From a virus: 64,000 nucleotides of DNA. Location of the stretch: positions 1 through 64,000 of IMG/VR virus record IMGVR_UViG_3300006037_000006. One strand, written 5' to 3'. Shown piece after piece: positions 31,671 through 47,409 of this stretch (positions are counted from its first letter, which is position 1; each line of letters opens with the position of its first letter). Under the pieces are notes generated by a model. That model had not been told where the DNA came from, did not search any database, and worked only from the letters and a program-made list of their open reading frames with translations. Position numbers and translations under genes: made by a program.

Positions 31671-31673
31671 CAA

Positions 31674-31697
31674 AAAAGGGCAACTAGTTGCCCTTTT
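31674..31697 (-). terminator. Terminator of the porin gene
   Basis: Stem AAAAGGGCAAC/GTTGCCCTTTT with no real loop (TA), followed by TTTTTT. Strong; overlaps the -35 side of the next promoter. Confidence 0.92.
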
Positions 31698-31712
31698 TAG
31701 ATTTCTAATTGA

Positions 31713-32588
31713 TTAGAAATTCAGTTCCATACCGACACCAATTTTCTGAGTGTCAACTGCGGCGACTTCTTTAACATAACGAGCATGTAGCTTAGTGTTC
31801 TTGCTTAGAGCGTAAGTAGCACCTAGGTTATAAGCCTTAGTACCTTCTTTTTCACCATAGCTTGCAAGTGCAGTAACCGCACCCATAGCTTGATTGATAC
31901 CAATACTCTTACCAGTAGAATTTACACCAGCAATTGTATCATCGGAGTACATACTAAACAACGTAGTGTTTGAATATTTAAACTTAGCACCGTAGATGTT
32001 AGATGCACTTGTAGTACCGTTATCAAAACGAGCAATAGTAGCCGAAACTGGACCAGTTACATATTCAACGCTTGCGCCTTGACTATTAGTAGTACCTGCT
32101 ACTTCACTATTTGCATTTTGATAATTAACAGTCAATCCGTTGACTGGAGTAGCCGAAACGAACACTGCATTTTGAATGCGGGTACCTTGTGCGGCGTGAA
32201 TAACAGCGGTGCTAGAACCAAACACATTGCCCATAGCATCATAGTTGTCAAGAGTCTTGGCAACTGCGTGTTTGTCACGACCTGCTGCAATTGATCCAAG
32301 CGAATTGCTCAACCCAAAAGTTGCTGCACGGTCGCCCAATGTAGTTGCTGAGGGTGCGTCAACTGCAACAGTAGTCTCAATGAGAAAGTTTGCAGATAGA
32401 CCGTTGCCTAGCGCCTCTGTACCTTTGAAGCCCAAACGACTTGAATCATTGGTCAATGATGTGACTGCCGATGCAGTTCCAACTGTAGTGCTTTCTTCGT
32501 ACATGCGAACTTTACCATAAACAGTAACTTGCGCTTGCGCGATTCCCATAGCTGCTAGCATTGCGCCGGCGATTAAGATTTTCTTCAT
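31713..32588 (-). CDS. Outer-membrane porin (Porin_4 type)
   Basis: 291 aa. Signal peptide MKKILIAGAMLAAMGIAQAQ, then VTVYGKVRMYEES, as in porins of beta-proteobacteria (VTLYGxxDxG). Alternating beta strands throughout: SRLGFKGTEALGNGLSANFL, RDKHAVAKTLDNYD (partial L3-like loop), IYGAKFKYSNTTLF. Ends in VGMELNF, with terminal Phe for Bam recognition. Shorter than typical host porins (~330-380 aa), so loops are trimmed. Own strong promoter and terminator. Complete gene. Sits with other envelope genes. Confidence 0.9.
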   Translation of the reverse strand: MKKILIAGAMLAAMGIAQAQVTVYGKVRMYEESTTVGTASAVTSLTNDSSRLGFKGTEALGNGLSANFLIETTVAVDAPSATTLGDRAATFGLSNSLGSIAAGRDKHAVAKTLDNYDAMGNVFGSSTAVIHAAQGTRIQNAVFVSATPVNGLTVNYQNANSEVAGTTNSQGASVEYVTGPVSATIARFDNGTTSASNIYGAKFKYSNTTLFSMYSDDTIAGVNSTGKSIGINQAMGAVTALASYGEKEGTKAYNLGATYALSKNTKLHARYVKEVAAVDTQKIGVGMELNF

Positions 32589-32635
32589 ATTTAAATTTCC
32601 TTTAGTTAAGCGATCCCGTTACAGAATCTCTCTGC

Positions 32636-32664
32636 ATTATACATACAGAATAATATTTAAGCAA
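32636..32664 (-). promoter_or_regulatory. Strong sigma70-like promoter of porin gene
   Basis: TTGCTT, 17-base spacer, TATAAT. Leader of ~40 bases and AAAGGAAATT ribosome binding site. Confidence 0.88.
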
Positions 32665-33376: not shown

Positions 33377-34120
33377 TTAGCTCCTTAATAATTTAACTAA
33401 CATGCCACCGGTGTCTAGTTGATACCACTTAGTCTTATAATAGGGCTCATTGCTTACTTCATGGTGTTGTTGGTGAATCCATTCACCTCCCATAGGAAAG
33501 ATGTACTCTAGCCACCAACGATTCTTTGCACCGATTGTCCCGTCAGCATTAACCATTCCACCATGAGCAAATTGTTTATGTAACCGATTACATAGATGGT
33601 TAGTGAAGATTGGTATAGCAAATGCAAACAAGAACCAGTTGAACCCGCATGCTAGTAAAAATAATCCCCATGCAGCACCCATTAGTAATGCATTATTGTT
33701 TATCCATACTAGTCTCTTATCACGAATTAGTTTCATAGAAGTTTTGATAAACTTAGTCTCTGGATTTGTAGTAGCATAGCCGTGTCCAAAGAAACCAGAT
33801 AGTCCCCTTAAATGAGGGTCATTAGGTTTATCACTATATGCATGATGACGTGAGTGCAACACCCGCCATTGAATAGGATTGGAATAAAAGTAAGTTGTAG
33901 TTATGACTGATAGCCAAAACATAACATTACCATTTGCTTCGTATGCATCATGGCAATAATAACGATGAATAACTGCACTGAAGATAGTTATCACTACTAC
34001 GTGGGTAGCAATAGCTAAAATCCACCACCAACCAGTTACTGGCAAAGTAAAGCCGAATAGTAATGCAGCAAAGCATACATAAAATATTGAAGTGTCAATG
34101 GGGACTGTATTTTTAAACAT
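33377..34120 (-). CDS. Membrane fatty acid desaturase (acyl-CoA/delta-9 type)
   Basis: 247 aa from MFKNTVPID; reading further upstream is a shadow of the preceding gene. Three histidine clusters that bind di-iron: HRYYCHDA, HSRHHAYSD and HQQHHEVS, with several hydrophobic membrane segments between. Matches the SCD/DesC-type class of the bacterial fatty acid desaturase superfamily, which inserts double bonds into acyl chains in the inner membrane. Phage use could raise membrane fluidity or modify lipids. Overlaps the gene before by 8 bases. Confidence 0.88.
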   Translation of the reverse strand: MFKNTVPIDTSIFYVCFAALLFGFTLPVTGWWWILAIATHVVVITIFSAVIHRYYCHDAYEANGNVMFWLSVITTTYFYSNPIQWRVLHSRHHAYSDKPNDPHLRGLSGFFGHGYATTNPETKFIKTSMKLIRDKRLVWINNNALLMGAAWGLFLLACGFNWFLFAFAIPIFTNHLCNRLHKQFAHGGMVNADGTIGAKNRWWLEYIFPMGGEWIHQQHHEVSNEPYYKTKWYQLDTGGMLVKLLRS

Positions 34121-34781
34121 GATTTTGTATTTTCTCGTAAACTTGATCCGCAGATAGTGTTTTAAAATCAACACCCAAGTTGACACGAAACTCAATGTTC
34201 TCTTTATAAGAATGCACCGAATGCCATTCATAGTGATTGAACAAAGTCCACACATTCTTTTTAAGCACGGTAGAAACAGCTTCTTCGCACTTGGTTATAT
34301 CCGGGATTCTATACTCAGGAATTAGATCAAACGGGGTAGTTTCTTTCCACCATTTAGTAATCTCATCTCCACCTTCAAGCAAGCAGAATAAACTTGCTTT
34401 TCTAAAATGACCTTTATGTGGATACAACATGCTTCCACCTGTACTTATTTGTACAATCGGAATCAGTTCATCCTTAGGTAGGAACGAAGGACATGCATCT
34501 TTAAATGCCTCATTCAATCGATCCGGTAAACTGTACTGTAAGAAACTAATTTGCGTTAGTGCATTAAATTTCTTAAGCATAGCAATGCGTCGAAACTTAA
34601 TCTCACGTGCGGCTTTAACGCCAATGTAAGATTCTATTTCACGGTAGGGAGTGTCATTGAGTATTCGGCGCCACTCTGGATTGCGCATGACTAATTCTTC
34701 AGGACGATTGTGACAGATGTCCAAGACTTCTGCTTGTATGTCGTCTGCAAACTTTAAATCTGTTTCTTTGAAGTATATCAT
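34113..34781 (-). CDS. 2-oxoglutarate/Fe(II) oxygenase-like protein
   Basis: 222 aa. YPHKGHFRKASLFCLLEGG and WTLFNHYEWHSVHSYKE ending IEFRVNLGVDF arrange His/His/Arg as in asparaginyl-hydroxylase-like double-stranded beta-helix enzymes (HxH...H..R). Tentative: metal ligands are guessed by position. Probably hydroxylates a protein or small molecule. Late-type ATAAATA box 5 bases before ATG, no ribosome binding site. Next to a desaturase, another oxygen-using iron enzyme. Confidence 0.55.
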   Translation of the reverse strand: MIYFKETDLKFADDIQAEVLDICHNRPEELVMRNPEWRRILNDTPYREIESYIGVKAAREIKFRRIAMLKKFNALTQISFLQYSLPDRLNEAFKDACPSFLPKDELIPIVQISTGGSMLYPHKGHFRKASLFCLLEGGDEITKWWKETTPFDLIPEYRIPDITKCEEAVSTVLKKNVWTLFNHYEWHSVHSYKENIEFRVNLGVDFKTLSADQVYEKIQNHV

Positions 34782-34793: not shown

Positions 34794-34799
34794 ATGGGG

Positions 34800-34819
34800 A
34801 AAGGCTCCGAAGAGCCTTT
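34800..34819 (-). terminator. Terminator of the tmRNA gene
   Basis: Stem AAAGGCTC/GAGCCTTT with a stable TTCG tetraloop. Only CCCC follows, so it might also be an end-processing structure. Confidence 0.75.
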
Positions 34820-34833
34820 CTTTGTTATTTTCT

Positions 34834-35041
34834 GTTACGAGGTATAACTACCCTAGGCGTCATTTAAGCAGCCAATGCGTAAACTGAATCGTTTGCATTT
34901 ATGGTTTTTTGTGTCTACGACCAGGCTCCGTCTTTCTATGCTATGGGCATAGCGACTAAAGTTACCCTAATCCTACGGCTTCTACATTGCCGAGTTGTCC
35001 ATTTCTCTACTCTTGACCCAATCGATTACCGGAGCAGGCCC
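34834..35041 (-). ncRNA. tmRNA coding piece (5' half of tRNA-like domain plus tag)
   Basis: Starts GGGCCTG, followed by a D-loop-like GGTAATCGATTGGG (compare GGATTCGACGGG in E. coli). Mid-region contains hairpins, then AAAACCATAAAT before the resume codon GCA. The 3' border of the mature piece is estimated; it probably lies before the terminator. Confidence 0.8.
34864..34896 (-). other. tmRNA tag reading frame (ANDSVYALAA)
   Basis: GCA resume codon at 34896, then Asn-Asp-Ser-Val-Tyr-Ala-Leu-Ala-Ala and TAA. The AND...ALAA frame matches classical proteobacterial tags (ANDxxxALAA), whose ALAA end is read by ClpXP. Confidence 0.9.
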
Positions 35042-35042
35042 A

Positions 35043-35192
35043 TCATAAAGATTTTATTTCTTTCTTTGCTTCTTTCATACGTTCTTCCCATTTTAGGTTG
35101 AACAATACACAACAACCACATGACAAAAGTTTAAATTTTTTACCTTTAAGTTTTGCGTTGGCACCTGCTGTGCCATGATATATGCTTTTCAT
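35043..35192 (-). CDS. 49-aa protein encoded in the tmRNA intervening segment
   Basis: MKSIYHGTAGANAKLKGKKF followed by KLLSCGCCVLFNLKWEERM and KEAKKEIKSL. A strong AAGGAAG ribosome binding site ends 3 bases before the ATG and begins two bases after the CCA end of the tmRNA acceptor piece. The TGA stop is one base before the GGG that begins the coding piece. So the ORF fills the segment removed on maturation. Basic, with a CGCC cluster; resembles small phage proteins of the 'KxxKxLxCxCC' kind. Function unknown. A longer frame reading into the tRNA-like part is an artefact. Confidence 0.72.
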   Translation of the reverse strand: MKSIYHGTAGANAKLKGKKFKLLSCGCCVLFNLKWEERMKEAKKEIKSL

Positions 35193-35203
35193 AAACTTCC
35201 TTA

Positions 35204-35272
35204 TGGTGGACCTGGCGGGATTCGAACCCGCGTCTTGAATCCTTTTCAATCTACTTCATACAACAATAACTC
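35204..35272 (-). ncRNA. tmRNA acceptor piece (3' half of tRNA-like domain, CCA encoded)
   Basis: Contains TTGAA-AAGGA-TTCAA hairpin, GAC, the T-arm and CAGGTCC-A-CCA. A standard tRNA cannot be drawn: the bases that would be the 5' acceptor strand and anticodon arm are missing. A -10-like TATACT is at 35284-35279. Confidence 0.85.
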
Positions 35273-35286
35273 TTATTTAGTATAGT

Positions 35287-35874
35287 TTACTTGTTTGCTA
35301 AAGGATTGTCAATAGCTTTCTGTATCTTTTGGTCAATCTCTTTCTTCAATTGTTCCACTTCCTTGCCAATCTCTCTACGTGCCTGTGCCATTTCAGTACG
35401 CACTGCTGCTGCTTCTGCACGAGCTTTGTCTAGGTCTTCTCTAACACCCTTACGCATATCACGCATCTCACCTTCTGATTCACGTTGGGCTGTTTTAACA
35501 CTGCGTTCAACTTGTTCAGTAACTGTTTCGTTACGACGGATATCAGTCTTAAGATCATTCTTAATATCACGAGTGTAATCAGCAGTCTTACCAGATGTTT
35601 CTTCAATCACTGCTAGACGCTTATCAAATCCTGATAAGTCTGGTGCCGAGTATTCAGATATCTTCTTCTTCATACCTTGATAGTCTTTGTAAACTTCAAA
35701 TGCACCATACAGTCCACCCAACAAGGATGATACTAGTGTGAACGCAACCATTAGTTTAGCAGGAGTAAATTCATATCCTCCAATACTAATGACTGTATCC
35801 TTACTGGCATATTTTTTTGCTGCTGCTTCCATATCGTCAATCTTAGCATTAACGTCTTTAATTTCTTCTGTCAT
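35287..35874 (-). CDS. Membrane-anchored coiled-coil protein
   Basis: 195 aa. One hydrophobic segment (~residues 38-60, KLMVAFTLVSSLLGGLYGAF), then ~130 residues of charged coiled coil (KAQ/E/R-rich: SVKTAQRESEGEMRDMRKG, EVEQLKKEIDQKIQKA). Likely a type II or I membrane protein with a periplasmic or cytoplasmic coil. A pattern common in phages, unnamed. Translated with the 46-aa protein just upstream. Confidence 0.72.
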   Translation of the reverse strand: MTEEIKDVNAKIDDMEAAAKKYASKDTVISIGGYEFTPAKLMVAFTLVSSLLGGLYGAFEVYKDYQGMKKKISEYSAPDLSGFDKRLAVIEETSGKTADYTRDIKNDLKTDIRRNETVTEQVERSVKTAQRESEGEMRDMRKGVREDLDKARAEAAAVRTEMAQARREIGKEVEQLKKEIDQKIQKAIDNPLANK

Positions 35875-36017: not shown

Positions 36018-37793
36018 TTATTCTCCTATCTTAAATTGTTGATCCACCATCGCTCGGTGTAATCTATCGCTACCTAACTGTCGTAATGCGCGGGCATTGT
36101 CTACAGTAGTTTGATTGCTATATATGTCTTTTGGTGCATAAAATCCTGCATCCTTAATTACAAATGAATACAGTTCATATCCTTTTGGTTGTACTGCCAT
36201 TGCTGCAATACTAACTCCACCTGCTAGATCATTTTGCTGCACACTTTTGTTCACTGCATCAGTTTTCATTTCACTTTGGAATGATTCAATTGTTGGCTTG
36301 AATTCATTTACTTCATTCACTACATTGCCTCTAGTAGATATACTAGCAGACGCTACAACTGGAATTTCATTCTGTGCAGAACTTGACTGATTGTTATTAA
36401 ACAGGGTAGGACTCTTTGGCAATATCATAGGCAATCCTAAATTAACAACTGGTTGTGTTTCTTGTACAACGGGCGGAATGTACACCTGCAGTAACGATTG
36501 CGTCACTGGTTGATAAGATTGAAACATTGATAACTGCTGAGTGTTGCTCTGAGAATTAAGTTGTTTTGATTGCTGTGAAGATGCTTGTGGTGCTATCAAT
36601 CCGCCTAATTGCGAACTAGATTGAGAGTTAGCTGAACCACTAGTCTGCACACTAGACGCACTCATTGCATTTAGTGTGTCTACTGTTGCCATAGCTTGCT
36701 CTTGTGCTTTGCTAGAACTTATTGCTATTTGCTGATTAGCATTTTGAACTGCTTTAGTTTGCACGGCTTTATCGGCAGCTTGAATTTGTTTTACAGCATT
36801 CATAACGGTAACGCTAGGTCCAGCTTTGTTTGATTCTGATTTTACTGGATCAGTTGTAGTTGCAGTGACAGACGCAGTTGGTGTAGAAGATGCAGCAACT
36901 GATGCAACTACATCTCGTAGTGCTTGCGGTATATTATCGGGCGCAGCAATTTCACCAGTTGTTGATAACTGTACTCCACCTACACTAACTGCGGTAGTAG
37001 GAGCTGAACTTGAATCAACCGTTGCAATCGTAGTTCCTGATGCAATAGTATACACGACCGCAGCAGCAGGTGCTTTAACAACCGGTACAATCGGATCAGC
37101 TATCTTGACTCCATTAAAAGACACACCAAGGTTACCGACAGCTACATTATTTCCATTGTAATATTGATAGAATTGACCTTTACTTAGATCGCCAGTAAAG
37201 CCCATAGTAACTGTTGCATTACTTATCACAGACGCACCCCATCGCATATCAACTGCGCCCGCACTATCTAGTTTCACCTCAAAACTGCTTTTGTTATTGC
37301 CATTACCATACTGGCTAGTTCCGTACCACCCGTATGTAATAGAATCAGCAGAACTAAGGTAAAATGTATTTCTACCTGTTTGCCCAATCAAATCAGTCCA
37401 TAACGGCATGACTGCATAGTTATAACGACTGCTAGTATTATTGTTTAACACTTCGCCTGAGCAACAGAAATTTCCTGTAGTCCCCGGATCTTGGAAACTA
37501 ACAACTCCGTTACTGTGCATCCAAGATGTACCGAATGTCTTACCAAAATAAGAAAATTGAAATTGTAGTGGAACAGTGGTAGTTCCATCATCACCTAAGT
37601 TAACCTGTGTAGCAGAAGCATTATTATTAAGATATTGCAATGCCGGTGTACTAGCTCCGGTGGTGACGTTGACAGATAAACCGTTCCCAATTGGAACGGT
37701 GACTACATCTGCTTTAGAATAATTTGAAAACAGCAGCGCCAAGCAAAGCGCCCAAGCCGATTTTCTTAGCAGTGTCATCATCTTTTGCCTCAT
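36018..37793 (-). CDS. Secreted adhesin-like protein with nidogen-type domain
   Basis: 591 aa. Signal-like N-terminus (LLRKSAWALCLALLFSNYSKA; start could be any of three nearby ATGs). Residues ~30-230 read FGKTFGTSWMHSNGVVSFQD, NYAVMPLWTDL and KSSFEVKLDSAGAVDMRWG, resembling nidogen/NIDO-like domains in adhesins and phage surface proteins. The rest is Ser/Gln/Thr/Val-rich low complexity. Overlaps the preceding gene by 80 bases. Perhaps a secreted surface protein or virion decoration. Confidence 0.68.
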   Translation of the reverse strand: MRQKMMTLLRKSAWALCLALLFSNYSKADVVTVPIGNGLSVNVTTGASTPALQYLNNNASATQVNLGDDGTTTVPLQFQFSYFGKTFGTSWMHSNGVVSFQDPGTTGNFCCSGEVLNNNTSSRYNYAVMPLWTDLIGQTGRNTFYLSSADSITYGWYGTSQYGNGNNKSSFEVKLDSAGAVDMRWGASVISNATVTMGFTGDLSKGQFYQYYNGNNVAVGNLGVSFNGVKIADPIVPVVKAPAAAVVYTIASGTTIATVDSSSAPTTAVSVGGVQLSTTGEIAAPDNIPQALRDVVASVAASSTPTASVTATTTDPVKSESNKAGPSVTVMNAVKQIQAADKAVQTKAVQNANQQIAISSSKAQEQAMATVDTLNAMSASSVQTSGSANSQSSSQLGGLIAPQASSQQSKQLNSQSNTQQLSMFQSYQPVTQSLLQVYIPPVVQETQPVVNLGLPMILPKSPTLFNNNQSSSAQNEIPVVASASISTRGNVVNEVNEFKPTIESFQSEMKTDAVNKSVQQNDLAGGVSIAAMAVQPKGYELYSFVIKDAGFYAPKDIYSNQTTVDNARALRQLGSDRLHRAMVDQQFKIGE

Positions 37794-38841
37794 CTATTTT
37801 AGGTAACTTTTCTGGGTTAGCTTCCCATTGTGTTTTAGCTGCTTCACCAATTTTGCCTTCGTACGGGCAAGGGGTACCAGCCGCTAGCATAGCGTCAAAT
37901 ACTCTACGGTCTTGACACATAGTAGCAACTGCTGCTACCTTCATGCCCATGTCGTATAAGGTCTTAGATAATTTTAGTCGTTCGCAATTCATATCACGCA
38001 CTGTACCACCAGTTGAAACACCAAAGATTTGTGTTTGTACACTTCCACTTGTGCCTGTGGTGCATAGGTCAGCATTGCCACCACTCATCATTGCAGGCGC
38101 AACTGCTGTTGGCGGTGGCTGAATGATTTTTTGTGTAATAGTAGACTCGTTAATATTACGGTTGGTCATGTCGCCACTGTTGACATTGTTATTTGTCATG
38201 TTACCAGTGTTCACGTTATTATTCGTATTTGCGTTGGTCGTTGCAGCAGTAGTGGCCGTAACATTGTTATTGTTATTAGTCATTGTACCGCTGTTAATAT
38301 TGTTGTTAGTATTTGAAGTAGTAGCCGTTGACGAATTAACATTGTTATTAGTCATTGATCCACTATTAACATTATTGTTAGTGTATGTCATTGACCCGCT
38401 GTTAACGTTGTTGTTTGTGTTGACATTGGTACTAGCATTAACGTTGTTGCTATTACTAGTAGTTGTGCCAGTGTTAACGTTGTTATTGTTGTACGTCATA
38501 CTACCGCTATTAACATTGGTATTAACGTTGTTGTTATTACTAGTAGTTGTGCCAGTGTTAACATTGTTATTGTTGTACGTCATACTACCGCTATTAACGT
38601 TGTTATTGTTGTTAGTCATTGAACCTGTACTAACGTTATTATTGTTGTTAGTATTAGTACTAGTGCTACCAACTGTCGTTTGATTGATGTTGGTCACTGT
38701 ACCCGAGTTAACGTTGTTGGTGTTAACCGTGCTGGTACTAGTGCTATTAGTATCAACTAGGGTTTTTGAATCGTATGTTGTCTGAGCTTGGGTGGTTATT
38801 GCCATAGCCATGACGGCGCTGACAATGAGAATTCTTTTCAT
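37714..38841 (-). CDS. Secreted Asn-rich repeat protein
   Basis: 375 aa from MKRILIVSAVMAMAITTQAQ (signal peptide). Residues ~30-240 are about a dozen degenerate repeats of a ~13-aa N/V/S/G/T unit such as NNNNVNSGSMTYNNNNVNTG, resembling a beta-solenoid. The C-terminal ~130 residues are a distinct domain with four cysteines (CERLK, CQDRR, CPYEG) and a hydrophobic end. Likely exported; function unknown. The repeat DNA accounts for spurious plus-strand ORFs. Confidence 0.78.
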   Translation of the reverse strand: MKRILIVSAVMAMAITTQAQTTYDSKTLVDTNSTSTSTVNTNNVNSGTVTNINQTTVGSTSTNTNNNNNVSTGSMTNNNNNVNSGSMTYNNNNVNTGTTTSNNNNVNTNVNSGSMTYNNNNVNTGTTTSNSNNVNASTNVNTNNNVNSGSMTYTNNNVNSGSMTNNNVNSSTATTSNTNNNINSGTMTNNNNNVTATTAATTNANTNNNVNTGNMTNNNVNSGDMTNRNINESTITQKIIQPPPTAVAPAMMSGGNADLCTTGTSGSVQTQIFGVSTGGTVRDMNCERLKLSKTLYDMGMKVAAVATMCQDRRVFDAMLAAGTPCPYEGKIGEAAKTQWEANPEKLPKIDEAKDDDTAKKIGLGALLGAAVFKLF

Positions 38842-38868
38842 TTTTATTATCATCCTCTGTTGTACTAC

Positions 38869-38910: not shown

Positions 38911-41900
38911 TTATGGATATAGTTTATCGTAGTGGCAGCGCAGCCATGCCCAGTCATAACTAAGTCGTAGCTTTTCTAATTCGCCGTTAACAGATTCATA
39001 GTAGCGACAAGCATCTAGTGCTGCATCCATACTAACATTTCCAAAATCACCGTCACCTAAGTTTAACCATGAACTTAATCTGAACTTAGCTTCTAAGTCA
39101 TCGTTCTTTTCAGTATATGCCTTTAGTTTCAAAGTTTCACGGAAACTAGTACGCCATGTGTCCCACGCACTAGTATTATACATACCTATACCACTGTTTA
39201 GCTTGATAACTTCATGTTCCCCATCCATAGTAAAGTCTAAACCTTTAGCTATAGTGTTAAGCGTAATGTTCTTATTATTAGCAACTATAGCTTGATGTCC
39301 GTACTCTAAGTGGTTAACCGGGTTAGTTGCAGTAAATATATAGTGCTTGGGAATCTGTAGTCTGTCTGGTTGCCAATCAAAATCAAACTTAGCATTAACC
39401 TTAAGTTTAGCATTGACCAAGAAGTACCAAGGCGTATTGCTCGCGTTAGCTGCTGCATGTTGACTTGCCACGCGACCGTTTATACCATCTACTCTGATAA
39501 CTCTATTCGCTAAATCACCTGTCATAAACAAAAGGTGCTCGTAGTTTTCATCAGCATTAGCTTCGCCGTTACTAAAGAATACAATGTCAAGTGGGTTACT
39601 ATAAACTAGCTTGTCTACACGCTTGATATACGGGTAATCATAAAGTTCTTTCTTCACGTAGTTTTTAGCTTCTTTTGGTACAGTAATATATGTTCCGCCG
39701 GTACTATGAACAGTTATGTTCTTAGTTTCAGGAGTCCACAAACTCATGGGTTCATCGTTTGTTACTCTTATTTCTTTGTTGTCTGCCGAGAGAATCGTAG
39801 CATAAGGCCAATTAAAATCAAAATCAGTAATAGAGACATGAGTATCCTTTTCATTTATAAAAATAGGTGCGGGCAATCGTTTTGCCCGTTGATGCTGGTT
39901 GTAATTAATTTTCACATAGTCTTCAAGCACAACCATACCATCAATCAATGTTCGCAATTTGTTCACGTCAATTAAGAATGTGTCCCCGAACTTTTGCTTA
40001 TCGCTAGGGAACACGTGCAATTGATCCTTAGCGTAAGGGTCACACATATAAGTAAAGTCAAACTGAAAGTATTCACAGATGGTACTGACAACCCAAACAT
40101 AATGTTCCTTCTTAACTGGTAATGACTTTACTATTGTTTTCAGCGTGTCCAAATAGCTAGTATCGTACTTAACAATCAATCTTCCCTCATGGGTGATATC
40201 ACTGAGGTCTGTGTCAGACAGATTACTATGGTCGATGTAGACGATATCGTATAACACTTCAACTGCTTGTGCTCTCTTAGTCTTAACAAAGTTCAATATG
40301 TTCAAATGTTCAATGACCTTCACATACTTTGTAGATTCTTCAAACGTGTCCTTGTTCACTAGGTAAGTATTTCCCCAATGACTCCATTGAGTTCCAAACA
40401 CATGAACCATATCCATCTGCCACGGGCTAGGATAGAAGTCAAACATAAACCCACCGTATTCAAGTTCACTGTTTACTACCCAGAATAGTTTAGACTCACT
40501 CTTGTTGCAACAACGTTGGATAGTTTCTACCCAGCTATTTAAATAGCGAGTCTTTTGTAGTTGAGGATAACGTATTTTCAGTGCGTCATATCTATCACCG
40601 CCGTTACCCCGATCAATGTAGAACATGCTTAAATTAGTTTCAATAGCCACTGTTTGATCTACTACATAGTTTATTTCACGGTGACCTAGTTTGTACATAG
40701 GTCCGTTGATATAGTATGTCTGTGTATTCTTACTGAACTCATTACCAAACGTGTTGATATGGCGGAAGTTCTCGTTAGTGGGTCTCCAACTAAAATCAAA
40801 CTTATCATAAGTCAAGTCGGGGTTCAATACCCAGAAGACTTCATCTGGGTGTTCATTAATCAGTTCTTCTAGTGTCGTTTTAATAGAGTAACGATTGACA
40901 ATTCCCTCACGATTACTATCTTCATACTCCATCAACACTACTTCAGTCGCAGCTGGTTGAGTATATCTAGGGCCGTTGTTCACCCATTGATAAATTTGAG
41001 GTTGACTATGTGGATTGGGTCTCCAACTGAAATCAAATGTCTGTAAGTCTTCACTGTTGTTCACTGTCCACAATGACATATCAATCTTAGGTAGAGCAAC
41101 AGGATAATCCATGTACTTTTTGATAGTAGCCCCCGGTACAACATACTCAAGGGTAGGTTCTGTCTTACTATCATTCCATTTGTTACCAAACACATACACA
41201 AGAGGTGGCTCATGTAAATTAGGATCGGGTCTCCATCTAAAGTCAAAACTATTCTTGTCTACTGCTATTAACTCATTCCATCTATCCCATTCAGGTGCTA
41301 AGTCAGCAATGCCCATGTACTTCTTTTCAGTTGCTCCTGGGACGATATACTCAATTGTTGTTTTCTGTTCTGCTGAATGAAACTTGTTACCCCATACGTA
41401 AATATACGGAGGCTCATGTAAGTTAGGATCAGGTCTCCAGCTAAAGTCAAAAGTTGTTCTATCTACTAGTAGATGTTCAGTCCATCTATCCCATTCAGGT
41501 GCTAAGTCTACTGTACCCATGTACTTTACTTCTGTAGCTCCAGGAACTAGGTACTGTATAGTAGGCTTGACTTCTGCCGGGTCATATATGTTGCCCCATA
41601 CGTAAACGTAAGGTGGCTCATGTAAGTTAGGATCAGGTCTCCAACTCATATCAAACGTAGTTTTGTCTACTTTGATAAACTCGTTCCATCTATCCCATTC
41701 AGGCTCTAAGTCTACGATGCCCATATACTTCTTTTCAGTAGCGCCGGGGACTTTATATTCTACTGTTGGTTTAATTTCTGCTGCATCGTATTTGTTACCC
41801 CATACATAGATATAAGGAGGACTAGTTGGATCAGGTCTCCAAGTAAAATCAAACGTAGCTTTGTCTACTTTAATTGATTCAGTCCATCTATCCCATTGAG

Positions 41901-42405
41901 GAAAAACTTGTACATTGCCCATGTACTTTCTATCGGTTGCGGTTTTAACATGATACTCTAGCGTCGGTTCAACCTCAGCCGGTACATGCTTATTACCCCA
42001 AGTGTAGATGTAGGGCGACTCATTAGGGTCAGGTCTCCACAATACATCAATGCTTGACATATCAATCGGTGATAAGAACTTCCAAGATTGATTCTTTAGT
42101 TTGATTGGGGAAACGTCAGTACGATAGATAAATGTATCTACGTCTAGTTCAGTGCAAAGCCAAGTTCCACTATCTTTGTCAAACTCACTAGGCCACACAT
42201 TGTTGAAATCACTTGTCCATGCATCTTCGTCGGGCAAGAACTCAAAATCCCAATCCCAATCAAAATTTTGATAATCACTGCATTCAGTAATTACCCAGAA
42301 ATGCTCTGTAGTGGATAATGACCTAGCGTGTGCTAAGTCAGTTGCATGTTGCTCTCTCGGGTGTGCGTGTGGCTTGTTGCCGAAGTAAAATACATCTCTT
42401 AACAT
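38911..42405 (-). CDS. Giant repeat protein with glycosyltransferase-like C-terminus
   Basis: 1164 aa. At least five strong ~68-aa repeats (about residues 110-450), each with FDFxWRPDPNxxEPPYIYVW, then KPTxEYxVPGATEKKYMG, then PEWDRWxE. Five weaker copies continue (FDFSWRPT, FMFDFYPS, FDFTYMCDP, FDFDWQPD). The last ~200 residues contain DIVFFSNGEANADE, RVDGINGRVASQHAAANAS and AWDTWRTSFRETLKL, the same blocks as the 52321-53268 protein, so it is GT-A-like. Multi-copy architecture suggests a modular sugar-binding or transfer scaffold. Function unknown. Confidence 0.72.
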   Translation of the reverse strand: MLRDVFYFGNKPHAHPREQHATDLAHARSLSTTEHFWVITECSDYQNFDWDWDFEFLPDEDAWTSDFNNVWPSEFDKDSGTWLCTELDVDTFIYRTDVSPIKLKNQSWKFLSPIDMSSIDVLWRPDPNESPYIYTWGNKHVPAEVEPTLEYHVKTATDRKYMGNVQVFPQWDRWTESIKVDKATFDFTWRPDPTSPPYIYVWGNKYDAAEIKPTVEYKVPGATEKKYMGIVDLEPEWDRWNEFIKVDKTTFDMSWRPDPNLHEPPYVYVWGNIYDPAEVKPTIQYLVPGATEVKYMGTVDLAPEWDRWTEHLLVDRTTFDFSWRPDPNLHEPPYIYVWGNKFHSAEQKTTIEYIVPGATEKKYMGIADLAPEWDRWNELIAVDKNSFDFRWRPDPNLHEPPLVYVFGNKWNDSKTEPTLEYVVPGATIKKYMDYPVALPKIDMSLWTVNNSEDLQTFDFSWRPNPHSQPQIYQWVNNGPRYTQPAATEVVLMEYEDSNREGIVNRYSIKTTLEELINEHPDEVFWVLNPDLTYDKFDFSWRPTNENFRHINTFGNEFSKNTQTYYINGPMYKLGHREINYVVDQTVAIETNLSMFYIDRGNGGDRYDALKIRYPQLQKTRYLNSWVETIQRCCNKSESKLFWVVNSELEYGGFMFDFYPSPWQMDMVHVFGTQWSHWGNTYLVNKDTFEESTKYVKVIEHLNILNFVKTKRAQAVEVLYDIVYIDHSNLSDTDLSDITHEGRLIVKYDTSYLDTLKTIVKSLPVKKEHYVWVVSTICEYFQFDFTYMCDPYAKDQLHVFPSDKQKFGDTFLIDVNKLRTLIDGMVVLEDYVKINYNQHQRAKRLPAPIFINEKDTHVSITDFDFNWPYATILSADNKEIRVTNDEPMSLWTPETKNITVHSTGGTYITVPKEAKNYVKKELYDYPYIKRVDKLVYSNPLDIVFFSNGEANADENYEHLLFMTGDLANRVIRVDGINGRVASQHAAANASNTPWYFLVNAKLKVNAKFDFDWQPDRLQIPKHYIFTATNPVNHLEYGHQAIVANNKNITLNTIAKGLDFTMDGEHEVIKLNSGIGMYNTSAWDTWRTSFRETLKLKAYTEKNDDLEAKFRLSSWLNLGDGDFGNVSMDAALDACRYYESVNGELEKLRLSYDWAWLRCHYDKLYP

Positions 42406-42418
42406 GCATATACTTATG

Positions 42419-42595
42419 TCAGTATTTGCCCCATTGAATCTTTAGCCATAACCTCTCAATGAGATATTGAACTATCGCTAATACAATGTGAATTGCTACC
42501 GCTTCACCTAACCCTGTCCATAGTGCAGTGATTAGTAATGCAACTATTCTATATGAAATTGTCCTAGCAATAGTACGTGCATGAATTTCAGTCAC
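42419..42595 (-). CDS. DUF2061-type small membrane protein (GTG start)
   Basis: 58 aa. ARTISYRIVALLITALWTGL then GEAVAIHIVLAIVQYLIERL and LKIQWGKY: two transmembrane helices and a W-K-x-x-W-G end, the DUF2061 pattern. GTG overlaps the carbamoyltransferase stop (GTGA). Unknown function; the family sits in many bacterial genomes and, here, in a sugar cluster. Confidence 0.78.
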   Translation of the reverse strand: MTEIHARTIARTISYRIVALLITALWTGLGEAVAIHIVLAIVQYLIERLWLKIQWGKY

Positions 42596-44085
42596 GATAA
42601 AACCTTGACCCCATACAATTGTTCAAATCTGTCTGCATCTGCCCGATCATTAACCATTGGTTCACCCCTAACATTCAAGCTAGTGTTAAGCAGCATAGGG
42701 CATCCTGTCAAGACGAACCACTTTTCAAGGAGTTCTCTAATTCCGCTTCCATCTTTTGGGACAGTTTGGACACGACTAGTCCCATCATGATGCACGATAG
42801 CAGGAAATAAGTCAGGATGCCTACAAGTACTGATGACTTGCATATACCTACTATTATCCCAGCCATCAGGCATGCTGAAATAATTATCAGCATACTCTTC
42901 CAGAATGACCGGCGCAAATGGTCTGAATTTTTGTCTACGTTTGATTTCATTTACTTTATCCTTAATTTCACTACCTCTAGGGTCTGCAAGGAGACTTCTG
43001 TTTCCCAATGCTCTCGGGCCGAACTCTGCGCGACCTGATGCGACACCAACGATGCGGTCAGTAAGTAACACATCAAGTAAACTATTAACAGGATAGTTCC
43101 CAACAATGTCATGCCCAAGATAAGCATCATTCCAATTAACTTTATACTTGTACCCAAGACATGCTGCACCGAGACTAGAGCCTGCATCGCCCGGATTTGG
43201 CATGATCCAAATGTTATCATAGTAATTTCCTAGTAATCTATTAGCTAAACAGTTTAGTGCTACACCGCCACCATATACAAGATTCTTACTCTTGCCTAAC
43301 ATACGGGCCTTACTAATGACATGCTGGATCAAATGCTCTGTAACAATTTGTGTACTAGTAGCAATATCCATGTTGTTTGCACCCTCTAAGAAGTTGTCGG
43401 GTACTCCTATGTGCAAGTTTTTATCGAATCGTAACTCTCTTGCTGATGCAACAAGAGTGTCATAGATTTCACCCGAGTGACGTGACTGGCCATATGCTGC
43501 CATACCCATTAAAATATATTCTTCATCTAGTGGGCGTAGTCCCACTCTAGCAGTCATTGCACTATAGAATAGTCCTATACTGTCAGGATAAGTTTGTCCC
43601 CATACCTTTTTATATTCAGCACGTCCGGTGTCCTCATCATATGAAGCATCCCATATACTGATAGTGTCAAACTCTCCAATGGCATCAATGATAACAACAG
43701 TAGCGTCATCAAAGGGACTGGTTTGAAAGCCAGCAGCAGCATGACTTAAATGATGATTATGAGTATGAACAGTCTTGTTACCTAACTGATATTTAATAGT
43801 ACTTCTACCGATAACATTTTTGACTGATATGTTTGCAATGCAAGTGGGTTCTCCTGCACGTAGTTGACGTAAGTACTTGAGCCAAGGTCTTTCATAGTAA
43901 TGAACTTCATAGTCATCACTATCCATATATGATTTTGCATCAGTGATTAGAGGCAAACATAAGTGCGAGTCATGTTTAAAGTTACTGTACCGTTCACTAT
44001 GCCCTGCAAATATAATTTCCCCGTAACTATTCACGACACTGATGGCAGCATCATGGAACCCAGAGCTAATCCCTATGTAATTCAT
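42592..44085 (-). CDS. Carbamoyltransferase (NodU/CmcH family)
   Basis: 497 aa. N-terminal YIGISSGFHDAAISVV and the HHLSHAA metal motif with DDATVVIIDAIGEFDT; C-terminal YrdC-like half with GVALNCLANRLL and AEFGPRALGNRSLLADPR. The family transfers carbamoyl from carbamoyl phosphate to hydroxyl groups of sugars or antibiotics, in an ATP-dependent way. Known from other T4-like phages. Substrate here is likely a glycan or small molecule made by neighbouring genes. Followed by the DUF2061 protein with GTGA overlap. Confidence 0.93.
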   Translation of the reverse strand: MNYIGISSGFHDAAISVVNSYGEIIFAGHSERYSNFKHDSHLCLPLITDAKSYMDSDDYEVHYYERPWLKYLRQLRAGEPTCIANISVKNVIGRSTIKYQLGNKTVHTHNHHLSHAAAGFQTSPFDDATVVIIDAIGEFDTISIWDASYDEDTGRAEYKKVWGQTYPDSIGLFYSAMTARVGLRPLDEEYILMGMAAYGQSRHSGEIYDTLVASARELRFDKNLHIGVPDNFLEGANNMDIATSTQIVTEHLIQHVISKARMLGKSKNLVYGGGVALNCLANRLLGNYYDNIWIMPNPGDAGSSLGAACLGYKYKVNWNDAYLGHDIVGNYPVNSLLDVLLTDRIVGVASGRAEFGPRALGNRSLLADPRGSEIKDKVNEIKRRQKFRPFAPVILEEYADNYFSMPDGWDNSRYMQVISTCRHPDLFPAIVHHDGTSRVQTVPKDGSGIRELLEKWFVLTGCPMLLNTSLNVRGEPMVNDRADADRFEQLYGVKVLS

Positions 44086-45075: not shown

Positions 45076-46205
45076 AGTTTGTAAAATTTACTCGACAGTG
45101 ATTTATAGCCATGTCCTCTAGTATCTTTGTTATAGAACTTAGTATCAATATGGCTGCTGATATACTGTAATGCGTATTCATAGTTCTTAACTAGATTTTC
45201 GTCAGTCTCGCTAAAGAACCATTTGTTTAGAATCGGGCCTGCTGTTGGTACCGGTGGTTTATTAGTTTGAAACTTAGGAGCATACTTAGGATCATAAATT
45301 ATATGCTGCATCAATGCCCTAAATATACCCACTTCATGCTCGTGCGTCTTTGTGAATACACTTCTGTACAAATCATTAGCAATACAGGCTTTCTTAATCT
45401 CTTGTGCTTGCTTAACTACGATCTCGGGTAAATCAGGAGTCCAGTAAAAGAATTCAGTAGCTGAGTTAATAAACAAGTCACTCATTGTGCTATCCATAGG
45501 ATGCATATGATAAGCGGATTGATCTAAGAAGAACGAATAATAATCTATGCCATCAAAGTATACTAATGGTTTATCTATTCCTAATAATTGACAGCTAATC
45601 TTGCCTTTCTCTGCTACTTCTAATATTTCGTTTGTCTTATATTGAGCCATTGCTCTAGCAATTACTCCTAAGTTACTACTAGCGTTAGGTAGTAGTTTCT
45701 CAGTCCAATTGTCCTTAGCAAATAATTCAGTAGTTGAAGTTGACATATCTTGAATTGTGATTTTGATTCCATCTATCTTGCTGCCCAAACTCTTTAGGTA
45801 TGGTATCGTTTGATAATCAATCTCGGCCCAGTAATTACTCCAATCAGTATCATTTTCTTTAGTGCGCTTACGTTCTGGTTCTGGTACTTGAATTACAATA
45901 TGATCTAATTTTATATCGTTATCTAAGAAACTATGAAGGACGTTCATGCTATCTTGTCCTCCACTAAAGTGCAACACGATATAGTCATACTTGTCCCGTA
46001 ATTGTTGCGCTCTCATTCTATATAATTGCGGCAGGGGCACCTCGATTGGGATAGTCCAGTCGATAGTAGAATATACACTATCGTTGAACACCCATCTAAC
46101 TTCAAAGCTATTCTTAGTGGCGTAAGTTACGGCTTCGGTCTTATTGTAGAATTTCTTCCAACCTACTAAATAATAACCACGCTTGTCAAGGTCTAGTGTT
46201 ACCAT
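45072..46205 (-). CDS. PP-loop ATP-pyrophosphatase (N-type) protein
   Basis: 377 aa. HFSGGQDSMNVLHSFLD is a PP-loop (SGGxDS) that binds ATP in N-type pyrophosphatases such as asparagine synthetase, QueC and tRNA-modification enzymes. Preceded by a ~70-residue N-terminal region and followed by a domain with no recognised motif. Substrate activation by adenylation of an acid seems likely. Together with the radical SAM pair and carbamoyltransferase it suggests a biosynthetic pathway. Overlaps the dehydrogenase by 20 bases. Confidence 0.78.
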   Translation of the reverse strand: MVTLDLDKRGYYLVGWKKFYNKTEAVTYATKNSFEVRWVFNDSVYSTIDWTIPIEVPLPQLYRMRAQQLRDKYDYIVLHFSGGQDSMNVLHSFLDNDIKLDHIVIQVPEPERKRTKENDTDWSNYWAEIDYQTIPYLKSLGSKIDGIKITIQDMSTSTTELFAKDNWTEKLLPNASSNLGVIARAMAQYKTNEILEVAEKGKISCQLLGIDKPLVYFDGIDYYSFFLDQSAYHMHPMDSTMSDLFINSATEFFYWTPDLPEIVVKQAQEIKKACIANDLYRSVFTKTHEHEVGIFRALMQHIIYDPKYAPKFQTNKPPVPTAGPILNKWFFSETDENLVKNYEYALQYISSHIDTKFYNKDTRGHGYKSLSSKFYKL

Positions 46206-47409
46206 AATGAATTACTTTGATTTGGTTGTTGTCAGTTGTGTATCTACGCCATGGATCGACTACGGTGCTTCCAGAAACAATTTCACAATATAGCTTCTGT
46301 GCTTTTTCAACATCAGCATAATCATACGTTAATTCTGCGCAGTGTGCTAGCAATACCACTCCTTTGATATGGGTAGTGACAGTTTCTTCAGTCAATGGAT
46401 CAACATAAAATACCCCATGCCCCATTTCTTCTACATAATGTCCCACTAGTGTACTGTAGCTTCCATCCGTGTAAGAGACATTAGGCTTGTATGCTTTACC
46501 ATGTATGAAGATATGCATTCCGGTACTATTTGCCTCGTCAACTAAGCATTGTGCAAGATTCTTAGCTTGTATCTCACGTGCTTGCATGATAGAGCCGAAC
46601 AAGTCATAACCCAAGTCTAATTGTTCTGCCATGTAACGTAGTGCAATGTTATCACGTGGATGACAAGCTCCTGCATCGCCCATGCCTGCTGTCATGTACT
46701 TAGGTCCCATGATACGCATTGTACTGTCTGCTAATGCTTTGGTTACTACGTCTACGTTGATATTACCTTGCTTCACTGCAACGTCTTGGATCATGTTGAC
46801 CAATCCAATCTTAGCACTGATGAAAGTATTGTAGAACACTTTGATACATTCACACTCGTCCCATGTACCTACTACATAGCGAGGTTCGTTCTGCATCATA
46901 GTCTTATAGAAGTTGATTAGTAGTTGTGCATCACCCGTTTCACTACCATCTTCTGTACCGATCATAACCATCTCGGGGTTTACAAAGTCCCATGCTACAC
47001 TGCCCATTGCAATTAAGTATGGATTGTAGATAAAGCGAGTATTAGGAATCAAATTAACAAATTGATTGCGAGTAGTGCCAGGTAGTACGGTAGAGATAAG
47101 AACCAACAATTGATTCTTGTTCATATACTTGTTTGCTTCTACTAAGCATTCTTTTACAATGTCATAGTTAAAGTCCTTTGTAGCTAAGTGGGCACTAGGT
47201 GTAGAACCATCATACTCTTTACTGTGCGGGGTAGGTACTGCAATGAATACAATGTCTTTGTCTTTTACTGCTAATTCTATACTAAAAACGACATTCACAT
47301 TGTCACTGATCACCGGTTGTACATCATATCCGTCTACGACATGTTGCTTTGCCATAACTTCTGCGCAGGCCAGGCCTAGTTTTCCTATTCCAATAAATCC
47401 GATGTTCAT
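46186..47409 (-). CDS. UDP-glucose/GDP-mannose dehydrogenase family protein
   Basis: 407 aa. N-terminal IGFIGIGKLGLACAEVM Rossmann motif, VFIAVPTPHS, STVLPGTTRN, central ACHPRDNIALRYMA and NTFISAKIGLVNMI (typical of the dimer domain), then SYTDGSYSTLVGHYVEEMG. The usual catalytic Cys motif (GxGFGGxCxxKD) appears as MGDAGACHPRDN, so a Cys is kept. Oxidises a nucleotide sugar to a uronic acid. Size and domain order match the family. Confidence 0.88.
   Translation of the reverse strand: MNIGFIGIGKLGLACAEVMAKQHVVDGYDVQPVISDNVNVVFSIELAVKDKDIVFIAVPTPHSKEYDGSTPSAHLATKDFNYDIVKECLVEANKYMNKNQLLVLISTVLPGTTRNQFVNLIPNTRFIYNPYLIAMGSVAWDFVNPEMVMIGTEDGSETGDAQLLINFYKTMMQNEPRYVVGTWDECECIKVFYNTFISAKIGLVNMIQDVAVKQGNINVDVVTKALADSTMRIMGPKYMTAGMGDAGACHPRDNIALRYMAEQLDLGYDLFGSIMQAREIQAKNLAQCLVDEANSTGMHIFIHGKAYKPNVSYTDGSYSTLVGHYVEEMGHGVFYVDPLTEETVTTHIKGVVLLAHCAELTYDYADVEKAQKLYCEIVSGSTVVDPWRRYTTDNNQIKVIHYGNTRP

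Follow-up and report, generated by a model that had tools for sequence, protein, structure and literature searches.

A phage-specific porin clade with a shortened C-terminal half, and its linkage to pstS in many relatives of a T4-like carrier phage

That a phage can carry a porin gene is known from the temperate lambdoid phage PA-2 of E. coli, whose Lc/NmpC protein, an enterobacterial porin of the OmpC type, blocks adsorption. Porin folds also occur in uncultured Caudovirales phages, as in the two BFVD entries named 'OmpC outer membrane protein (porin)' (A0A6J5L4P1 and A0A6J5LP82), which resemble the porin described here in that respect and differ from it in being only 17–19% identical and belonging to other families or representing fragments. 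As regards phosphate, pstS is an auxiliary gene of phages, for example cyanophages (PMC10976474, PMC10987575), and the soil/public survey among these reports (PMC10987575) makes no mention of porins. In bacterial chromosomes, the phosphate-sparing lipid remodelling performed by PlcP-Agt is encoded by a metallophosphoesterase gene followed by a glycosyltransferase gene, with a Pho box nearby (PMC4796936). Additionally, the cultured Pelagibacter phage Mosig carries a putative gene for a phosphate ABC transporter (most likely pstS) next to a PlcP-like homologue resembling UDP-2,3-diacylglucosamine hydrolase, and no porin is annotated within 5 kb of this pair. Thus, the pairing of pstS with a PlcP-like gene has a precedent whereas the porin has none, and no phage-encoded porin beside pstS was found in the open-access literature searched.

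The gene analysed here shares with PA-2 Lc/NmpC its location on a phage, and differs from it in belonging to a Porin_4 clade of T4-like jumbo phages that is linked to pstS in relatives. It lies in a window of 64 kb (the whole stretch of DNA that was analysed), which is part of a 92,319-bp virus record. The initial annotation had proposed an outer-membrane porin of about 291 aa, and a frame intact from ATG to stop and encoding 291 amino acids was found exactly at 31713–32588 on the minus strand. Its product matched Pfam Porin_4 (PF13609; E = 1.5e-26, 94.4 bits against a cut-off of 27, residues 9–271) and no other Pfam family at E up to 1, neither Porin_1, the enterobacterial OmpC/OmpF type that includes Lc/NmpC, nor Porin_O_P, the profile of the phosphate-specific OprP/OprO, while similarity to the NCBIfam PorB model was weak and below its cut-off. 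By inspection, the N-terminus, MKKILIAGAMLAAMGIAQA followed by QVTVYG, reads as a Sec signal peptide occupying residues 1–19 (32532–32588, minus strand), with the first aligned strand beginning at residue 20, and the chain ends in GVGMELNF, so that both the signal peptide and the terminal Phe claimed earlier can be read in the sequence.

Expression signals surround the frame on the same strand. A ribosome-binding-site-like AAAGGA is found at 32598–32603, its AAGGA being retained in relatives, and a sigma70-like promoter occupies 32636–32664, with a similar TTGCTT-17-TAAAAT arrangement in the related contig L037. The promoter had been described as strong, which holds for its perfect –10 hexamer (TATAAT, 32636–32641) and not for its –35 hexamer, a weak TTGCTT (32659–32664) separated from it by 17 nt. 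It is overlapped by a T4-late-like CTTAAATA, with TAAATA at 32654–32659. Since TAAATA is commoner in the upstream gaps of the carrier phage than expected from shuffling (10 observed versus 3.7 expected), a late-type promoter is possible for the porin. Directly 3' of the gene, the expected intrinsic terminator was located at 31673–31698 (minus strand) as an 11-pair hairpin with a T tail. A hairpin-T terminator follows the porin gene in every relative checked, indicating that the stand-alone unit is conserved, and promoter-like sequence is found upstream there too. Therefore, the description of the locus as a phage-carried porin forming its own expression unit agrees with the T4-like record, the phage-only clade and the dedicated promoter and terminator.

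An AlphaFold2 model was built with 16 homologues (pLDDT 75.5, pTM 0.68), its low-confidence parts being the signal peptide and loop L3 (the latter below pLDDT 60). In this model, the whole mature chain aligns to 16-strand porins in Foldseek and VIA-align, and the predicted strands, in keeping with the beta-barrel noted earlier, form a 16-strand barrel with an inward L3 constriction loop. The closest structural matches of the predicted fold were BpsOmp38 (Z 27.7, rmsd 2.2 Å over 271 residues), the anion-selective Omp32 of Comamonas/Delftia acidovorans (Z 27.1) and Neisseria PorB (Z 26.4). The phage protein resembles these three, all general porins of the Porin_4 type, in its modelled fold (Z 26–28), its full-size L3, its pore arginines and its C-terminal Phe, and differs from them in sequence (21–23% identity), in having about 60 fewer residues with minimal L5–L8, and in being phage-encoded. 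As the solved porins matched comprise 308–343 residues, it is mainly loop residues of which the phage protein is short. The L3 segment (residues 106–139; 32172–32273, minus strand) is of equal length in 14 of 14 phage porins and nearly invariant. R51, R87 and R137, invariant in these 14, align with R38, R75 and R133 of Omp32, which we take to be its selectivity cluster. K106, H107 and H131 are likewise invariant in the phage porins, whereas bacterial porins rarely or never have them at the same columns. At position 111, the phage porins have K or R. An anion preference of the pore may be inferred from this core. Taken together, the gene probably specifies a functional 16-strand outer-membrane porin of the trimeric type, which would be expressed and inserted into the membrane.

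The part of the chain running from R137 to the end (strands 6–16, loops L4–L8; 31713–32177, minus strand) is shortened relative to bacterial relatives. By alignment segment length, it measures 153–160 residues in 14 of 14 phage porins versus 167–242 in 41 bacterial ones, with no overlap, the bacterial set being a sample rather than a census and consisting mostly of the best profile matches from 399 genomes of the order to which Noviherbaspirillum belongs. The bacterial median is 192, Omp32 has 198, and the bacterial frames among the matches listed start at 305 aa (median 376), apart from one fragment at a contig edge. The R51–R104 and L3 segments are full-size in the phage porins. Whole-segment counts are robust, whereas the smearing of gaps in the alignment makes separate counts of L6 and L7 unreliable. 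This shortening would fit superinfection exclusion or receptor masking, a role put forward in the initial annotation as receptor replacement, according to which a loop-poor porin would replace or dilute the long-loop porins of the host, so that other phages could not bind while solutes still entered. Every phage member is shorter in this half than all 41 bacterial relatives, L5–L8 are predicted by the model to be hairpins of only 2–5 residues, and Lc/NmpC of PA-2 provides a precedent. However, the clade shows strong linkage to pstS and not to tail-fibre or immunity genes, exclusion of the Lc type is known from temperate phages, whereas the families scanned in the fragment revealed no integrase, and the shortening may reflect the compactness of phage genes; phage PstS is hardly shortened (331 aa versus 346 positions in the NCBIfam model). 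On balance, exclusion is considered unlikely as the role of the protein.

The porin clade is present in more than 30 viral contigs. Two scans of viral contigs recovered 24 and 31 loci with 56–67% identity to the window porin, later members reaching down to 51%, whereas the nearest bacterial porins share 24–33% over long alignments. No match to the clade was found in 50,697 phage records; a tblastn search of INPHARED at E up to 0.01 yielded none with either the window porin or the divergent member L122, and a scan of genome contigs with the window porin, by a method that senses near-exact peptides only, yielded no relative. The comparison with host porins that the initial annotation had called for gave a maximum-likelihood tree, limited by the bacterial sample, in which every phage porin falls in one clade (support 100/100), whose stem measures 1.6 changes per site. 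Consequently, the porin is no recent host copy. Gene decay, also raised at the outset, was looked for and not encountered: 16 homologues are intact and all end in NF, with pairwise dN/dS among phage porins of 0.08–0.32. The single deep clade and the purifying selection argue for an old acquisition that has been kept by selection in phages. The same evidence weighs against regarding the locus as non-functional or misassembled host DNA, or as a lysis factor. Porins are host-type in origin, and nothing else was found for such a reading, which is opposed by the phage-only clade with its long stem, the intactness of the full-length members checked, the low dN/dS and the synteny across independent contigs; it is therefore held to be very improbable, and a decayed gene or host contamination as such was rejected, given the phage genes on both sides and the intact relatives.

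In many relatives, pstS is the next gene after the porin. The phage PstS is an NCBIfam equivalog match (432 bits against a cut-off of 339), so periplasmic phosphate capture is encoded by relatives in this clade as in the phage pstS systems already described. A scan of viral contigs with it retrieved 43 contigs, in 15 of which a clade porin lies 109–120 bp upstream, these 15 including near-copies and amounting to about five related sub-lineages (L009-like, L012-like, L125, L119 and L122–L124). In several contigs that reach far enough (L110, L119 and L122–L125), genes for a phosphoesterase resembling PlcP/LpxH and for a glycosyltransferase (GT2 or GT4) come after the porin–pstS pair, an order that, with a Pho box nearby, resembles PlcP-Agt and differs from it in being phage-borne and in that the PlcP is putative, its identity resting on this context (as in PMC4796936) and on LpxH-like similarity below the LpxH cut-offs. 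In another lineage (a 261-kb contig and its kin), porin, pstS and a plcP-like gene share one contig about 20 kb apart, and porin and pstS are non-adjacent on the same contig in L115, L117 and the lineage-B contigs. Neither pstS nor a PlcP-like gene was found in the window's own 92-kb record. The notion that every porin-bearing phage carries pstS was rejected, as G415 (230 kb) has a PlcP-like gene without pstS and G000 has neither. Two contigs, L130 and L131, were left out as bacterial-looking DNA in the virus collection; they resemble a bacterial chromosome, L130 having a TorF-like porin and P-II- and ammonium-transporter-like genes around pstS.

Upstream of pstS, Pho-box scores exceeded 9.2 (the 95% shuffle point) in 15 of 17 contigs, 11 of which also passed 12.8 (the 99% point), whereas no Pho box was found before the porin in 16 members (–1.2 to 6.5, window 2.3, versus 9.2). 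The matrix comprises seven E. coli boxes and absolute scores are rough, so that what counts is how the scores compare with those of shuffled sequence. The porin is thus not visibly phosphate-regulated, and its terminator separates it transcriptionally from pstS. A gene that forms a unit of its own in this way, flanked by a dedicated promoter and terminator and lacking a Pho box, would suit the general upkeep of outer-membrane permeability, in which the phage would supply a porin to keep all small solutes entering after host shut-off in a lengthy jumbo-phage infection, the phosphate linkage being incidental. Membership of a general-porin family and the 20 kb that separate the porin from pstS in some lineages would suit it too. 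However, direct adjacency to pstS recurs in about five sub-lineages, and unrelated barrel-like proteins substitute beside pstS in other phages, so that permeability upkeep is judged rather improbable, if slightly less so than exclusion. These substitutes, found beside pstS where the clade porin is missing, are signal-peptide proteins with a C-terminal Phe, namely 183-aa proteins in L121 (9348–9899) and L127 (9324–9875), which matched nothing, and 145–153-aa proteins in L134 (11071–11532), L135 (11495–11944) and L144 (4209–4646), with weak, sub-cut-off matches to the barrel families YfaZ and OMP_b-brl. Occupation of the porin slot by unrelated candidate barrels suggests that phage PstS recurrently has a partner in the outer membrane.

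The favoured reading, which we hold at about even confidence, is that the porin is an anion pore for phosphate supply in infected cells. The protein would be exported via the Sec/BAM route of the host into its outer membrane during infection, where, as a general anion-favouring pore, it would admit phosphate and similar small anions to the periplasm. There, phosphate would be bound by the host PstS or, in many relatives, by the phage PstS, while the PlcP-like phosphoesterase and glycosyltransferase of relatives would probably free phosphate from membrane phospholipids, and the phosphate so gained could serve the synthesis of a genome of 230–300 kb. The earlier suggestion of altered nutrient uptake thereby gains indirect support, in the direction of phosphate, from the pstS and PlcP-like linkage in relatives and from the conserved arginine cluster of anion porins, although general porins pass many solutes. 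What weighs most against this reading is that pstS and a PlcP-like gene were not found in the window's own record and that no Pho box precedes the porin. Phosphate supply, exclusion and permeability upkeep are not mutually exclusive. More doubtfully, jumbo phages of freshwater betaproteobacteria might carry a trans-envelope module composed of a loop-shaved anion porin, a Pho-box-controlled PstS and a PlcP/glycosyltransferase pair stripping membrane lipids of phosphate, with the porin slot fillable by unrelated barrels and the porin also hiding the cell from competing phages. The phage nutrient genes known so far act in the periplasm or cytoplasm, and a conserved pstS-linked phage porin would take uptake reprogramming to the outer membrane. 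It would also represent a testable case of a virus altering which receptors its host displays, and channel biophysics gains a general porin whose loops were trimmed in nature.

As for the carrier phage, the record encodes a T4-like terminase, a UvsX-like recombinase and a UvsW-type helicase, with baseplate-like genes recognised by inspection in the remainder. The nearest terminases, 84% identical, belong to viral contigs of 230 kb (G415) and of 264 and 303 kb (G402 and G426 between them), all of which carry a PlcP-like gene and two of which carry pstS, whereas no terminase of a cultured phage exceeds about 51% identity. Probably, two-thirds of the carrier genome is absent from the fragment. 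A permuted (two-piece) tmRNA of betaproteobacterial type, with the tag ANDSVYALAA, lies at 34795–35316 (minus strand), 2 kb upstream of the porin, making a betaproteobacterial host likely; the kind of hosts and the relatives would point to a freshwater phage. In L034, the porin immediately follows a tmRNA-like stretch with the tag ANDERFTLAA.

The flanks of the window, including a MoxR-like ATPase, a VWA-like protein, a run of small genes and the protein at 38911–42405, are common to L032, L033, L036 and partly L052, and the segment 35287–38853 is common to L037. The 38911–42405 frame (minus strand, as are those below) encodes a long protein with repeated 'FDFSWRPDP..PYIYVWGNK' units that reaches 2014 aa in relatives and, within the lineage of the window, is encoded close to the porin. 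Two secreted proteins without a Pfam match stand beside the porin in L037 as well, one of 591 aa with a signal peptide (36018–37793) and one strongly Asn-rich with NNNVNSG repeat units (37714–38853). A Nol-like carbamoyltransferase (42592–44085) and a UDP-glucose dehydrogenase-like gene (46186–47409) suggest sugar modification by the phage. Additionally, a DesA-like fatty-acid desaturase, below its cut-off and possibly a membrane-lipid gene, is encoded at 33377–34255.
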